Shown piece by piece: positions 19,051-56,287 of a stretch of 64,000 bases of DNA. The stretch's first letter is position 1. Each line of letters opens with the position of its first letter. The position numbers and the translations under genes are program-made. Location of the stretch: NCBI RefSeq assembly GCF_001029265.1, contig NZ_CP011856.1, forward strand, positions 1 through 64,000, written 5' to 3'. Below the pieces are notes generated by a model, which did no database searches, was not told where the DNA came from, and saw only the letters and a list, made by a program, of their open reading frames with translations. Origin of the DNA: Spiroplasma eriocheiris. Lineage in GTDB: Bacteria > Bacillota_I > Bacilli_A > Mycoplasmatales > Mycoplasmataceae.

Positions 19051-19929
19051 ATGGAATTAAGAAGTTTATACAAAAAAATCAAATTACAAGGTATTAATTC
19101 AACGGGAATTACAAAAGCTATTTCAGATTATATTGTGGAAAATATTAAACAACGCAATATTGAAGCATTATCACTTAAAAAAATTGCTAAAAACTGCAAT
19201 GTAAGTGATGCTACCATAACTAGATATTGCAAAGAATTGGGTTATTCAGGGTTTATTCCTTTTAAAAAACATTTAGATGCCATTAATACTAACTATGTTA
19301 TTAATAACCATGAGGTGATTATTAATCGGAGTTTAGTTGAATCAACAGAGAAATTTTATGATGAATATGTTAATATTTATAATCGTGGACGATTAGCAAT
19401 TAAAATGCTAATTAAAAATGGAATGATTGATCGCATCGCAAGTTTACTTAAAAATTGCCAAAGAATTTTTATTGCCGGAAACAATATTAATTATAGTCAA
19501 ACAATTGATTTTAAAAATCATTTAATCGCGAGTGGGTTTAATGTTTTATTAGAATAAGATGAAGTAGCTATCACTTCATTTGCGAATATTGCAACTAAAA
19601 ATGATGTGTTTATTACAATCTCATTGGCGGGAACCGACACTTTTTTAGAAAGTGCGGGCCAATGTGCGAAGTCAAACGGAGCACAATGGATTGCAATTAC
19701 TAGTGTTTCGGATTCAGTTTTTCAAAATGCTGACCAATTAATTGTGTTAGAAAGTAAAGAATGAAATATTTGGAACTTGTATAGTTTACGAGGACAAATG
19801 CTGTTTGAATTTTGAAATGTTGTTTATTTGGCAACCGTTCATAAAATGATGGAAGCCGAAAATTACGAAAAGGCCTTTGATTCATATCAGGAAACAGATG
19901 ACTTAAGTAATTTAAAAATTAAGATATAA
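19051..19929 (+). pseudogene. RpiR-family regulator broken by one stop codon
   Basis: RpiR proteins regulate sugar-phosphate genes with an N-terminal helix-turn-helix and a C-terminal SIS sugar-phosphate domain. The HTH half is clear (LSLKKIAKNCNVSDATITRYC). The frame meets TAA at 19555-19557, then continues in the same frame without another stop through the rest of the SIS domain (DEVAITSFANIATKNDVFIT) to TAA at 19927. TAA for CAA (Gln) is the simplest change. The intact gene would encode 292 aa. It lies just upstream of the glycosylasparaginase-PTS genes and was probably their regulator. The N-terminal 168-aa piece could still bind DNA but would lack the effector domain. Confidence 0.85.
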
Positions 19930-20194: not shown

Positions 20195-21160
20195 ATGAAA
20201 TGAGGCGTTATTGCCACCTGGCGTATGGCTTATGAAGGGATTAACACAGCAGTTGATTTGTTTAATAAAAATGCCACCGCGGGGGATATTTTAGAAACAA
20301 TTATTAAAGCAGTTGAAGATTATCCTTACTATAAATCGGTTGGTTATGGAGGATTACCAAATGAAAATGGAGAAGTTGAATTAGATGCTGCTTTTATGAA
20401 TGGTGATAATTTGGCAATCGGTGCAGTTGCGGGGATTAAAGATTTTAAAAACCCAATTAGTATTGCCAAATATCTGGCGGAACATGAACGCCATAATATA
20501 CTGTTAGTTAGTAGTGGCGCTGAAGCATATGCCCATAAAAATGGGTTTCAAAGAAAAAATATGTTAACAGACCGTGCTAAATTAATGTATAACAACAAAG
20601 TTGCTGAACTAAGCGCGGCAAAGTTAAAAGCTTACGATGGCCACGACACGGTAGGGGCGATTGTTTTAGACAACCAAGGATCAATGGCGGCGGGGACCTC
20701 TACTAGTGGATTATTTATGAAAAAGCCTGGAAGAGTCGGCGATTCGCCGTTATCGGGATCCGGGTTTTATGTTGATAGTACAGTTGGTGGTGCTAGTGCA
20801 ACTGGTTTAGGAGAAGATATTATGAAAGGATGTCTATCCTATGAAGTAGTTCGCCAGATGGGAATGCTACCTAACAAATCTGTTCAAGAAATTATTGATG
20901 TAGTTCTTTTTAATTTTCATCAAAAATTAAAAGCAAGGTTTGGTGAAGTTGGCGGAATTTCCTTAATTGCAATGCGAAACAACGGGGAATGAGGAGTAGC
21001 TAGCAATGTTGAATTTTCATTTGTGGTAGCTACTACAAATAAGCAACCACAAATCTATGTTGCTAATCCAAATGCCGATTTTACGAAAACTAATTATGAT
21101 TTCGCAACCAAAGAATGACTAGATAACTATGAGAAAAGAATTAAGAGCCCACTTAAATAA
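20195..21160 (+). CDS. Glycosylasparaginase (N4-GlcNAc-asparaginase, Ntn-hydrolase)
   Basis: The family cleaves the bond between N-acetylglucosamine and asparagine after self-processing into alpha and beta chains. It has 321 aa, starting MKWGVIATWRMA with two TGA-Trp codons. The autocleavage/nucleophile motif is GHDTVGAIVLD with Thr152 as predicted new N terminus. The substrate loops GTSTSGLF, RVGDSPLSGSG and TVGGASATGLGED are all present. There is no signal peptide, so it acts in the cytoplasm. AGGGGGG precedes ATG 20195. It is followed at once by PTS IIA, IIC and IIB genes, suggesting that the transporter supplies its substrate. Isoaspartyl peptidase activity is the main alternative. Confidence 0.88.
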
Positions 21161-21188: not shown

Positions 21189-21497
21189 ATGGAAGATATT
21201 GAAATGATTGCTTTTAAAATTATTTCAAATGCTGGAGATGTATTTTCTCATATGTATGAAGCATTACAAAACGCCAAAAAAGGTAATTGAGAGGAAAGCG
21301 ATCAACATGTTAAAACAGCAGATGAAAAACTAAAAGCGGCCCATCTTGTGCAAACGGATTTAATTCAAAAGGAAGCCCAGGGTGAAAAAACCAGTTATTC
21401 AATTTTAATGGTGCATGCTCAGGATCATTTAGCCAACGCCATTCTAAGTCAAGTGATGTTCCAAGAATTAATTGAAATATATCGAAATAAGAAATAA
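21189..21497 (+). CDS. PTS lactose/cellobiose-type enzyme IIA
   Basis: This 102-aa protein transfers phosphate from HPr to its IIB partner. The family motif LMVHAQDHL is present, with His76 as the predicted phosphorylated residue and Asp79/His80 in the conserved positions. It starts MEDIEMIAFKIISNAGD at ATG 21189 behind AGAGAGG. It lies between the glycosylasparaginase gene and the IIC gene, and the three form one operon with IIB. It is related to the second IIA at 56836 but clearly distinct. Confidence 0.93.
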
Positions 21498-21512: not shown

Positions 21513-23789
21513 ATGAATAAAAATAGTATCAGACATCAAACTTTTAAGGAAAAAATCGATTATTTCATTAATAATAAGGTCGCGATGTGAGGAGCAAAAG
21601 TGGCAGGTCAGCGTCATATTGCTTCGCTTCGGGATGCCTTTATTTCTTATATGCCCTTTTTAATTGTTGGTTCAATCTTTATTATTATTGCTAATTTTCC
21701 AGTAAATTCATGAAGCGATATTTTAGATAATAAATATCCGTGGTTAGGAAGTGTTTTAATTTTTCCGAAACGGATTACTTTTGATATGATGTCATTTTGA
21801 ATTACTGCCTTAGTTGCTTATAATTTATGTAAATATTATAAATTAAATCCAATCTTTCCTATTATTTCTTCAGTCGGATTTTTTATTGCATTAACGCCAT
21901 TAGTTGGTAGTGGGGAAGCTAGTGACTGGTGGAAAGCTTCTTATATTCCGTTTGGGGGATATGCTGGAACCAGTGGGATCTTGCTCGCAATTGTATGTAG
22001 TATTGTAGTAACTGAATTCTTTAAATTTTGTCGGGATAAAAATGTTCGAATTCCAATGCCCGCCGCAGTTCCCCCAGCGGTAACCGCTTCTTTTGCTGCT
22101 TTAACACCACTATTCTTAATTATTATTTTTGCTTTAGTCTTACGGGGGTTATTTGGATTAACAGAGTGAAAATACTTACCAGTTATGCTAGAACACTTTT
22201 TGGCGGCTCCGATTTCCCAAGGTTTCATTGGAAAATTAGGGGGCGTTGTGCTAGTAACCGTGTTAGGCAGTTTAGGATGATGCTTTGGGATAAACTCTTC
22301 GGCAATTAATGGTATTGTCCGGCCATTTTGATCACAATTATTACCAGATAATCAAGCAGCATTTGCCCATTATCGGCAAGCAGGTGAATATTTGTGAAAT
22401 AACTTTAACATCGGAGTTGAGGACTTTTATAATTATGTAACAACCGGGGGAGCAGGAAGCACCTTAATTATTATTTGTATAATGGCAGTTTTTGCTCGGA
22501 GTGAAAAAGTCAAAACAATTTGTCGGATTGCGATTATTCCCGGAATCTTTAATATTAATGAACCATTTTTATTTGGAATTCCAATTGTGTTAAATCCAAT
22601 GATGTGGATTCCCTTAATATTAGCACCATTGGCGTCTGCTTTAATTGCATATGGAGCAATGCACTTTCACCTAGCCCACATGCCGATTGGCGCGCTGAAC
22701 CCATGGACCTTACCAATTGGCGTCCTGGGATATTTTACTAATATGCATTGAACAGGACCAATTTTACAAATTGTAACGGCCTGTGTAGCTGGGGTAATTT
22801 GGTTCCCTTTCATTAAATTTGCGGATATGGATGAATTTAAAAAAGAAAATAATCTTGACACCGGAGTTTTAAACACCTTTAAAACAGCGCGGCGCCTCGG
22901 AATTTTGCCACCAATTTTTGGCTCTTTAAAAAATGACCTTTATTGGGAAAAATACACCCAGAAAAAACCATATAAAAAAGAATTAGCAAATGTTTTAAAA
23001 GAAAAACTAAACCAAGAAAAAATGCATAAACAAAAATTTACCGATAATGTTCTGATGCTAGATGATAATTTTAAAACAGAAGCTCAAACAATTGAGGCAA
23101 ATAAATTATCATGGTTAGCTTTAAAAGAGGAATGTAATGCCGAAATTAAAACAGCAAAAGGAGAGTTAAGAATTAAAATAAAAGAATTATCCAAAGAACA
23201 GCAAAAAGATAAATTACTAGTTAACCAAATTAAAAATAATTATAAAACTAAAATTAGACAAATTAAGGATAGTCATCAAGGTGAACTGCAAACATTATGA
23301 AATAAATACCAGTTAACAAAACAAGCAGGAAAAAATAAAATTAAAACGTTGAAAAAGGATCTTCGTAAACAAATCGGAACAACTAAACTTAGTTTAAAAA
23401 ATAATTTAAAAACAGTTACTGTTGACTTTAGACCATTAATTAAAATTGAACATCAAAAATTAAAAGAATTAAAACAAGAATGGTTGCAAGTTTATAAGCA
23501 ATTAAAACATACAGCTAAATTAGAAATTAGTTACGCAAGAAAAACAAAAAATAAAGAATTAAAAACTGCACAAGAAGAACGCGACCATTTAATTCATGAA
23601 GCAAAAATTGCGGGTGATGATATTAAAGTTAGCAAGTTGAAACGTAATTTTTTAAAACAACAAACAGAAATTAATAATAAGTTTGAAGATGCTGTTGTAA
23701 TTGCTAACGCCAAAATCTTTAACCAAAAAGTTAAACCAAGTCAATTAAAAAGTGATTACTACAAAACTGAACTTGAAAATAAAAAATAA
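21513..23789 (+). CDS. PTS cellobiose/lactose-type enzyme IIC with long charged tail
   Basis: This is the membrane channel of a PTS sugar transporter. The full frame is 758 aa, with many TGA-Trp codons. Residues of about 1-465 match the Lac-family IIC: RHIASLRDAFISYMPF, multiple membrane helices, and the substrate-binding NEPFLFGIPIVLNP. From about residue 475 to the end, the protein is a ~280-residue soluble, Lys/Glu/Gln-rich segment predicted to be helical coiled coil (for example IKELSKEQQKDKLLVNQIK). IIC proteins normally end soon after the last helix. No strong ribosome-binding site precedes ATG 21513, so translation may be coupled to IIA. IIB follows as a separate gene. Confidence 0.9.
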
Positions 23790-23810
23790 ATTGTAAAGGA
23801 GATGATTAAG

Positions 23811-24125
23811 ATGAATATTGTGTTAATATGTTTTGCTGGGATGAGCACTTCAATGTTAGTAAGAAAAATGCAAGAGGCAGCCGATAATAGAGGAATTAGT
23901 GCCAAAATTTGAGCAACAGGTGCTACCACAGCAATTGATGATTTAGAAGAAGAAAAAGTAGATTGTATTTTGATTGGACCACAAGCTAGATATGATTTGG
24001 ACAAAATGATTCCGATTGCCGAAGAACAAGATTGCCCAATTGATGTTATTAGCTCAGATTTGTACGGAACTTTTGATGGTGAAAAAGTTTTAGACATGGC
24101 ATTAGATCTAATTAAAAGCTACTAA
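23811..24125 (+). CDS. PTS cellobiose-type enzyme IIB
   Basis: This 104-aa phosphocarrier passes phosphate to the incoming sugar. It starts [17 protein letters not shown]; Cys7 is the predicted phosphorylated cysteine in the canonical C-x-G-M-S-T-S loop. AAAGGAGATG precedes ATG 23811, 21 bp after the IIC stop. It completes an IIA-IIC-IIB set. Its last 14 bases overlap the 3' end of a small gene on the opposite strand. Confidence 0.93.
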
Positions 24126-24464: not shown

Positions 24465-24495
24465 GTTTATGAAAATTTTGAAAGGAACGTTTAAA

Positions 24496-25887
24496 ATGGA
24501 TAACTTAATTAAAAAAGAAATTATTAAAAACAATGATAAATTTTTAGAAGACCTTATAACATTTTTAAAAATCAATACTGTCAAAGATGGTGCTCTAGAG
24601 AACATGCCATTTGGAAAGGGAGTTGCTAGGGGGTTAGCGTTTTTATTAAATTGATCAAAACAACAAGGTTTTACAGTTATTAATCTTAACGAGATGATTG
24701 GTTATTTAGAATATGGTGAAAGCGAAGAATATATTGCAGTACTGGGTCACTTAGATGTGGTTCTCGCCGGTAATAATTGAGTTACCGATCCTTTTGAACC
24801 AGTTATTATGGAAAATAAAATTTATGCGCGGGGAGCTCTGGATGATAAAGGGCCACTATTTGCTAACCTATATGCAATTAAAATTTTAAAAGATTTAGGT
24901 TATTATCCGAAAACTAAAATTCGTATTATTTTTGGAACTGATGAAGAATCACGAGGGTTAGGAATTAATTACTATAATAGTAAAGAAAAACCACCAATAA
25001 TGGGATATACCCCAGATAGTGTATTTCCTGTTGTGTTTGCGGAAAAAGGAATTTTTACTTATTGGTTAAATAAGAAAAATAATAATTTTGCTAACCAAAT
25101 TTTTAATTTAAAAGGTGGAGAGCGTTCAAATGTTGTTCCTGATTATTGTGAAGTAACCTTAAAAAATTTAAATTTTGATTTAGTTGCCCAACTTAATGAT
25201 TTTTTACAACAATATAATACAAATTATCAATATCAATTTGAAATAAAAAATGATAATGGTTCTTGAAAAATACAATCCCATGGAATAACTGCTCATGCTA
25301 GTACTCCGGAAGAAGGAAATAATGCCATTCATAACTTGCTTAAATTAATTACATGGTTACCATTAGTTCATGATGATAACTATAATTTTATTAAGTTTAT
25401 TGCCAATAATTTTACTTATGATGGAGCAAAAATGAATTGTCAAGTTAAAAATACTGAAATGGGAGATTTAACTATGAGTTTAGGATTGATTGAACAAGAT
25501 GACAAGGTAATTAAATGTAAATTTAATGTACGTTATCCCCAAAATACTAATATGCCTGATTTAATTACTCGCTTAACAAAAATTATTGATCCCTTCGATA
25601 TTTATCTTAGTGAAGAAAATGATACTCCTGCTCTATATTTTTCAAAAACCACCCCGATGATTCAAATTTTACATAATACATATCAAAAGGTAACTGGTTA
25701 TCAAGATGAACTGGTACCTTCGAAAGGATCAACTTATGCTAAGTTAATGCCTAATATTGTAGCATTTGGAGCAACTTTCCCTGGTGAGGAAACAACAGAG
25801 CATCAACCAAATGAATTTATTGATTTACAAAAATTATTTAAAGCAATGGAAATTTATGCCAATGCTATGATTGCGTTAAGTAAATAA
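24496..25887 (+). CDS. pepV: M20 family dipeptidase, PepV-like
   Basis: PepV is a cytoplasmic zinc dipeptidase with broad specificity. It has 463 aa, the usual PepV length, with several TGA-Trp codons. Metal-site motifs in order are GHLDVV, ARGALDDKGP and FGTDEESRG; the lid domain follows and the C-terminal half carries the last ligands. ATG 24496 is preferred over ATG 24469 because AAAGGA (24481-24486) precedes it; the first ATG has no ribosome-binding site. It may supply amino acids from peptides and may process products of the neighbouring glycosylasparaginase, which is inference. Confidence 0.9.
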
Positions 25888-54130: not shown

Positions 54131-54212
54131 AATGATAAATAAATTTCTTTCATTTGATTTTTTTGATAAAAATTTGAAAAAAAATTATCATTTTTGTTGA
54201 AAGTTTATCATT
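54131..54212 (+). promoter_or_regulatory. Candidate operator repeats before EIICB
   Basis: Three copies of a 9-bp motif: AATGATAAA (inverted, 54131-54139), ATTATCATT (54184-54192) and TTTATCATT (54204-54212). The last two are direct repeats 20 bp apart, two helical turns. A weak promoter (TTGAAA 54197-54202, TACAAC 54220-54225) overlaps the last copy. They lie directly after the DeoR gene, in front of the PTS genes. Confidence 0.5.
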
Positions 54213-54273
54213 TTCGGAGTACAACATAAGTAGATGGATATTTTCCATTACAGTAAATAGAAAGGAAAGGAAC

Positions 54274-56287
54274 ATGCAAAGTACAAAAAAATCTCCTAGC
54301 AGAGAACCGTTTAATAAAAAAATGGAATCCTGAATGAATAAACACCTTGTTCCTGTCTTAAGAGTAGTTGCTGGGAATAAGTATTTGCGTTCTTTAATGG
54401 AAGGATTTTATGTAACTTTACCAATTATTATTTTTTCTTCAATCATTGGTATTATTATGTGAGTTCCTCCCGCATTTAAAGGCAATATGGCGTGGTATCC
54501 CCTGGTTGCACGTCAATGTTTAAACCGGATTTATGTTTTTACAATGGGCCTGGTCTCAATCTTCTTTACCGCTGGGATTGCAAGGGCCTTAGCTGAAAAA
54601 ATTAATCAGGGTTTACCAACTAATCGTAAAATGAACCTTATTATGGTAATGTTTGCCGCAATTTCAGCAGTTTTTATGCTATCAGTAACGGTAACATTTA
54701 CTTTAACAAATGATGGTAGTCAAACTGAAAACTTTGCTAGCATCTTTATTTCAAACTTAGCCGCCCAAGGGATGCTAACGGGGATTATTATTGGTTTAAC
54801 AATCCCATGAATTTTTTACTTACCAGTTAAATATAACTGAACAATTAAATTACCTAAAGCTGTTCCCCAGGGAATTTCCCAATCTTTTTCTGATATTATT
54901 CCTTATGGTTTAGCAGTGTTGGTATATTGAGGATTTGGCTATATCTTCATTGGTATTTTAAACATGTCATTTACTGATGCGCTATTTCAAGCGATAAAAC
55001 CAGTGTTTAGTGGCCTTGACTCCTATGGCTTTTTAGCGGCGATGGCATTCTTAACAGCCTTCATTTGGTTTATTGGTGTTCATGGGCCATCGGTTACCAG
55101 ACCATTCATTACCCCTTTTATGTATAGTAACCTGGCTGATAACCAAGCAATTTTTGCTCAAGGTGGTCATCCCCACTGAGCTTTAACTTATGAATTTTCT
55201 TATGACTTTACTTCCAACAATGGGGGGAACTGGGGCCACCTTTGTGATTCCAATTTTACTAATTTTATTTGCGAAATCAAAACAATTAAAAGCCGTTGGT
55301 TTTGCTTCTTATATTCCAATTTGATTCCAAGTTAATGAACCAGCATTGTTTGGTTGCCCACTAATCTTAAATCCAATTGTGATGATTCCGTTTATGATTT
55401 TACCAATTATTAATGTGGTAATTTATAAATTCTTTATTGAAACGCTGGGAATGAACGGAGCAATTGTTGATGTGCCCTGGTCGATGCCCGCAGCAATTGT
55501 CGGTTTATTACTGGGAACGTCCTTCCAGTGGCAAGCTGTGGTGTTGTGGGGAATCTTATGTTTAGTTGATTTTATTTGTTGGTTACCATTTGTCTTATTG
55601 ATGGATCGCTTAACATGTACCGAAGAAATTAAATCAGCCCAAGAAAAAGGGATTCCGAAACCAATGCACTTTAATTACTTTACACTCGCGCGCTTGCGCT
55701 TGGGGGCCAAACTAGACTTAAATAAAGAAAAACGTTTATTATTTACTAACCAATTAGCAGAATTTACAACTGAAATTAAAACTGAACGGGCAAATAATAA
55801 AGCTGCTAAAATTGAAGCAAAAAAAGCTTTAATTGCCCAAAATCAACAATTTAAAGCCGAAAAATTAGCGGCTAAAAAAGCTGGTGTTAAATTTAATAAA
55901 AATCTGGTTGTTGAACAATCCCAACCTGTTAGTCAACCTCTAACTCGTGATCAATACCATGTTTTAATTGTTTGTTATGGGGCTGGCACTTCGGCAATGT
56001 TTGCTGCTAGTGCAAATAAAGGGGCTGCTAGCCGCGGAATTAAAAATATTGTAATTGATTCAGCCGCATATGGTAGTCACCGTAATTTAATGAAAGAAAT
56101 GGACTTAGTGGTATTATCACCACAAGTTAATGTCTATATCGATGAAATTGAACGTGATGCTAGTGCTTGAAAAGTTAAAATTGTCGAAACCAAAGGCAAA
56201 CAATATATTGATTGCACCAATAATCCTGACCAAGCAATTGACTTAATTTTAGCAAATTTACCAGATTATAATTTAGAAACAAATTAA
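54274..56287 (+). pseudogene. PTS lactose-type enzyme IICB, frameshifted
   Basis: This is the membrane channel and IIB domain for lactose/galactose-type sugars. The frame from ATG 54274 (AAAGGAAAGGAA upstream) covers most of the IIC (FTAGIARALAEK, GVHGPSVTRPFITPF, GGHPHW). At TTTT (55195-55198) the frame must move forward by one base to continue MTLLPTMGGTGATF, NEPALFGCPLILNP, a ~70-residue Lys/Ala/Glu-rich linker, then the IIB domain with phosphorylated Cys (codon 55973) in VCYGAGTSAM. Removing one T gives one 671-codon gene. All other conserved residues look intact, so the change is recent or an error. Confidence 0.85.

Follow-up and report, generated by a model that had tools for sequence, protein, structure and literature searches.

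A long basic helical tail on a lactose/cellobiose-class PTS permease of Spiroplasma eriocheiris, one of several unrelated appendages in the Spiroplasma lineage

Few transporters have been studied as thoroughly as the PTS permeases, which are regarded as compact. A search covering one genome per species recovered 82 lactose/cellobiose-class IIC genes at 80 loci of other bacteria, and in none of these 82 non-spiroplasma proteins is the core preceded by more than 46 residues or followed by more than 30, in keeping with an earlier, sequence-only reading of the DNA described here, which held that IIC proteins usually end soon after their last helix. The permease under study is encoded in the window, i.e. 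the whole stretch of 64,000 nucleotides that was analysed (positions 1 to 64,000 of contig NZ_CP011856.1 of Spiroplasma eriocheiris). It shares the membrane core, the fold and the IIA/IIB operon with its relatives, represented by the lacE model TIGR00410 and the structure of ChbC (3qnq), but where the sampled relatives stop it adds 304 residues. The fused IIC-linker-IIB permeases (a second copy in the window at 54154-56287, and L009, L013 and L030) have in common with it a charged, Lys-rich segment after the IIC; in L009, L013 and L030 this segment is a shorter linker that ends in IIB, whereas the segment of the window permease is longer and runs to a stop, with IIB encoded separately.

The open reading frame at 21513-23789 (forward strand) encodes a protein of 758 amino acids under code 4 (86.4 kDa) in one open frame that is closed by TAA. 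Residues 1-454 (21513..22874, +) form the IIC membrane core: TIGR00410 matches residues 28-446 with 283.9 bits against a cut-off of 236, PF02378 scores 134.6 bits against a cut-off of 30.7, and the predicted fold resembles ChbC 3qnq (Foldseek E 3.3e-22, TM-score on target 0.71). A IIA gene (21189..21497, +; PF02255, 1.8e-33; net charge -5), the IIC gene and a separate IIB gene (23802..24125, +; PF02302, 1.8e-16; net charge -9) are collinear, the arrangement of a lactose-class PTS operon, and IIB starts 12 bases past the stop of the tail with a ribosome site of its own, AAAGGAG. IIB lies in frame with the IIC and its tail, a single TAA standing between them; the chance of such a shared frame is one in three. 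The gene is a genuine and intact lactose/cellobiose-class PTS IIC permease, and the only intact IIC of this class found in its genome. The copy at 54154-56287, which had served the sequence-only reading as a comparator (at 54274), is not intact: its frame is broken by a frameshift between ~55,190 and 55,230, near a six-G run at 55,222. A third lactose-class IIC of the same genome (L054, G000:C1:110581-112613) is also split over two frames.

The tail comprises residues 455-758 (22875..23786, +), about 304 residues if the count starts at the last IIC helix and 313 if it starts at the end of the TIGR00410 profile, somewhat more than the roughly 280 first estimated; the underlying observation of a long, charged, helical tail in an uninterrupted frame with a normal stop was borne out. 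It matches no Pfam family, its maximal 19-residue Kyte-Doolittle mean of 0.5 indicates no membrane segment, and 70 Lys/Arg residues against 38 Asp/Glu give it a net charge of +32. Composition-matched Markov sequences meet their first stop at a median of codon 10, and none of 2000 stayed open over 304 codons; the remaining two forward frames across the tail contain 23 and 42 stops. AlphaFold2 predicts helix across nearly all of residues 488-757, even without an alignment. The single-sequence model, with a pLDDT of mostly 75-95, consists of one helical rod at about residues 487-631 (22971..23405, +), followed by helices at 640-700 and 703-737 (23430..23717, +, the end being approximate) and one near the end, and a whole-protein model built with an alignment of the core has the same helices plus one break at 562-566. 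The distal helices at 640-700 and 703-737 carry the highest confidence within the tail, with a block pLDDT of up to 95. The periodicity of hydrophobicity along the tail peaks at 99 degrees (power 2.45, p 0.007) as against 1.48 near 103, for helices 567-630 and 640-700 the maximum lies at 98.5-99 degrees, and the heptad repeat at 102.9 degrees is absent. Because the period is 99 degrees and not the 102.9 of a heptad, the models describe an amphipathic, basic helical tail, for which coiled coil, the term used at first, is not supported even though its helical component is strongly predicted. Judging from the ChbC-like topology, the tail would be cytoplasmic. No IIB domain was found within it, so that the protein does not count as an IIC-linker-IIB fusion, and comparison with solved structures and folds matched generic helices only. 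Across 320 genomes of the order the tail has no convincing homologue; one match in genome G273 (E 4e-4, 26% identity) was set aside as compositional. Among congeners, a close remnant of the window IIC occurs in G003 alone, as a truncated fragment.

The tail had been taken for an oddity of this one gene, a view that the wider family does not bear out. Among 79 complete lactose-class IICs from 60 genomes of the family, nine are fused to IIB and 70 are unfused, and 53 of the 70 are extended at one end, N or C, by 90 or more residues (range 90-343); a few of these extensions finish in a small non-charged domain. When groups are defined by the absence of links at E<1e-5, the N-terminal extensions form groups of 236-343 residues (the L008 class) and 157 residues (the L007 class), and the C-terminal ones form groups of 150-231, 94-218, 95-147 and ~157 residues, in addition to the window tail, which at 313 residues from the profile's end is the longest C-terminal extension in the set. 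Every one of the 59 charged extensions has a net positive charge; their mean is +0.094 per residue, whereas 190 soluble proteins of the window's genome average -0.005 (sd 0.037), and the N-terminal class has a hydrophobicity period of 99-100 degrees (p 0.003). The L007 and L008 classes resemble the window tail in composition and positive charge and are expected on the same cytoplasmic side of the membrane, but the appendage sits at the opposite end of the protein and its sequence is unrelated. The closest architectural counterparts are the C-tailed IICs L002-L004 and L031 (genomes G024, G031, G036 and G067), which likewise have a separate IIB and basic tails, of 231 residues in the first three genomes and ~150 in G067 as against 304 in the window; their cores belong to a different clade and their tails have no detectable homology with that of the window. 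A common origin of these tails and the window tail was considered and is unproven, at 2.3 bits and an hhalign probability of 0.4%: the score lies above 2000 plain shuffles, but at least 2.3 bits are also reached by one in 1000 block shuffles and by fourteen further extensions in the list, of which four belong to the profile itself. In the family the tail is common in kind, while its own sequence is unique to this genome. The tailed IIC represents a known transporter in a variant architecture that has evolved repeatedly in the Spiroplasma lineage, and no published account of such tails was found in the open-access literature on the PTS and coiled coils in Spiroplasma or mollicutes, subscription papers lying outside the scope of the search.

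Two further departures from the compact form were seen among lactose-class IICs. Many Spiroplasma proteins (L012, L014, L016-L018, L021, L022, L024, L174-L193 and others) have a less charged insertion of 83-199 residues that interrupts the membrane domain midway, between query positions ~216 and 240. In another family of the order, the genomes G043 and G049, which have no MreB proper, encode IICs (L025 and L026) with basic N-terminal extensions of at least 201-203 residues, whose reading frames reach the end of the locus and whose true length is possibly greater.

Within the window's own genome the comparison was made with a sample of 62 multi-TM proteins drawn from ~35% of the sequence. The longest C-terminal tail free of TM segments in this sample is that of the window IIC, and a longer, equally charged extension occurs only at the N end of a DUF4310 membrane protein (L212 10439-12118, G000:C1:560439-562118), where 352 residues that are poor in Pro and Gly carry a net charge of +22. 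Its orthologues in G004 and G015 are also extended at the N end, with ~345-353 residues over the three genomes, and its gene neighbours encode DUF4311, DUF4312 and Gly_rich_SFCGS proteins and a PRD-domain ORF; the cluster resembles an importer of the PTS type whose small subunits are detached. Another protein without a Pfam match (L219 10841-12625, G000:C1:980841-982625; 594 residues, five predicted TM segments) has a charged N-terminal part of 349 residues, with a K/R/E/D/Q/N fraction of 0.43.

In IIC trees the window core stands among Firmicutes, a placement whose exact position is unsure because of the long end branch. Its nearest sequences, from Clostridium, are 38-39% identical to it, against at most 33% for the aligned spiroplasma relatives, and an AU test (p-AU 0.024) rejects a clade that joins the window IIC to the remaining C-tailed IICs. 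We infer from these comparisons that the core reached the Spiroplasma lineage horizontally from Firmicutes-like donors. Three PTS clusters of S. eriocheiris, of which this operon may be one, have been listed as horizontally acquired from non-mollicutes (PMC9666726). Since the donors are without a tail, the recipient lineage probably acquired it itself, independently of the others. On a larger IIC tree, parsimony requires at least eight changes among the states of no, N-terminal and C-terminal extension. The course of such tails after their gain can be followed in G024, G031 and G036, three genomes of one genus, in which the orthologous tails are exactly 231 residues long without any length change and 55-71% identical at a dS near 1, with a dN/dS of 0.17-0.30 compared with 0.02-0.03 for the core. 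These tails, which are of a different class from the window's, are under purifying selection, and the pattern fits a constraint under which rod length and helicity would matter more than the letters.

The reading that we favour, and hold tentatively, is that the tail may act as a cytoplasmic helical scaffold or spacer on permeases with detached soluble subunits. After the core had entered the Spiroplasma lineage, the C end of the IIC would have been lengthened by 304 residues, a basic helical appendage expected to project into the cytoplasm from the inner face of the membrane; the extended helices could hold permeases together and keep soluble acidic proteins of the PTS (IIB, IIA), or acidic components of another kind, near the IIC, a putative non-covalent equivalent of the covalent IIC-linker-IIB fusion. 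A scaffold or tether is favoured because extensions accompany a detached IIB, most loci with extended IICs having a separate IIB gene, while fused permeases go without them or have a linker in their place: the nine complete fusions and the broken window copy lack an N-terminal extension and carry just a linker plus IIB. It is favoured also because the DUF4310 PTS-like permease, with its seemingly detached subunits, is extended too. Tethering of IIB, which had been proposed from the sequence, is possible in the window, where IIB ranks first in acidity among 51 IIB partners, but across the family the charges of extension and IIB do not correlate (rho -0.19, p 0.18; 51 partners), and their electrostatic pairing as a general rule is unsupported. 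Counter to a scaffold, Firmicutes with detached IIA/IIB have no tail, and the untailed spiroplasma IICs L005, L006 and L032, with a C end of merely 9 residues, also have a separate IIB. In its broadest and slightly more doubtful form, the proposal is that spiroplasmas and their kin may repeatedly and independently have equipped detached-subunit PTS-type permeases with basic helical rods on the cytoplasmic side, as a convergent and hitherto undescribed scaffold that would organise sugar uptake in the wall-less cell. Basic helical appendages of 100-340 residues at either end and of unrelated sequence suggest a need specific to wall-less cells, for which clustering, partner capture and membrane contact are candidates. 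S. eriocheiris is reportedly transformable, as Terahara et al. are said to have found in 2017, and the role is open to test by deletion of the tail.

The same charge would suit a different function that we consider unlikely, namely that the basic amphipathic helices bind a polyanion, either the anionic inner leaflet or RNA and ribosomes, and thereby place the permease or stabilise the membrane. The uniformly positive charge of the 59 extensions fits binding to a polyanion as well as it fits a scaffold, the 99-100 degree period of both the tail and the N-terminal class is typical of a straight amphipathic face, and the maximal hydrophobic moment reaches 0.54. Yet the tail is very hydrophilic, with a mean Eisenberg H of -0.26 and values of -0.01 to -0.6 in the segments of highest moment, so that its hydrophobicity lies below the usual level of membrane-inserting helices, and no RNA-binding family was found in it.

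It is likewise doubtful that the extensions are weakly constrained by-products of AT-biased genomes, in which K/E/N-rich helical tails would grow and drift because cytoplasmic ends are under little deletion pressure. At the amino-acid level the orthologous tails of G024, G031 and G036 change ~10 times faster than the core, the GC content of the window gene drops from 0.36 in the core to a host-like 0.26 in the tail, and the sequence of that tail occurs in no other genome. Drift of this kind sits poorly with the constant length and low dN/dS of those orthologues at a dS near 1, and with the concentration on PTS-type permeases of charged extensions of this size that lack a known domain, which among the 62 sampled multi-TM proteins are confined to the IIC, the DUF4310 protein and one unassigned protein and which occur on 0 of the 82 outside IICs.

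Anchoring of the permease to the Fibril/MreB ribbon, a role that the sequence-only reading had put forward, has been weakened and now seems improbable. Extensions of at least 150 residues on lactose-class IICs do occur, within the family, solely in MreB-bearing genomes, in 37 of 64 cases against 0 of 6 from genomes without MreB, by a Fisher test that ignores descent (p 0.008), but no PTS IIC is listed in the ribbon of S. eriocheiris (PMC9582952 Table 2) or in its 0.8% Triton-insoluble fraction (PMC5289999 Table 1), though its expression may have been low there. G015 has no MreB match and yet its DUF4310 permease carries a like extension, the two genomes of another family combine basic N-terminal IIC extensions with the lack of MreB proper, and the MreB-less G021 and G032 have tails of 114-119 residues. 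That something else was joined to the core at ~22,900 by assembly or annotation error, as the fall in GC at the junction might invite one to think, is very improbable because the tail lies inside one collinear IIA-IIC-IIB operon of a single-contig genome, open over 304 codons and with IIB directly after it, and analogous tails are present in other genomes.

The surroundings of the operon offer some minor observations. An RpiR-like regulator upstream (19051-19929) looks broken, an in-frame TAA at 19555-19557 splitting it into 168 and 107 residues. On either side of the operon lie the genes for an Asparaginase_2 family protein (20195-21160) and an M20 peptidase (24469-25887), and this company for a ChbC-like IIC hints at GlcNAc-Asn or glycopeptide-type substrates.
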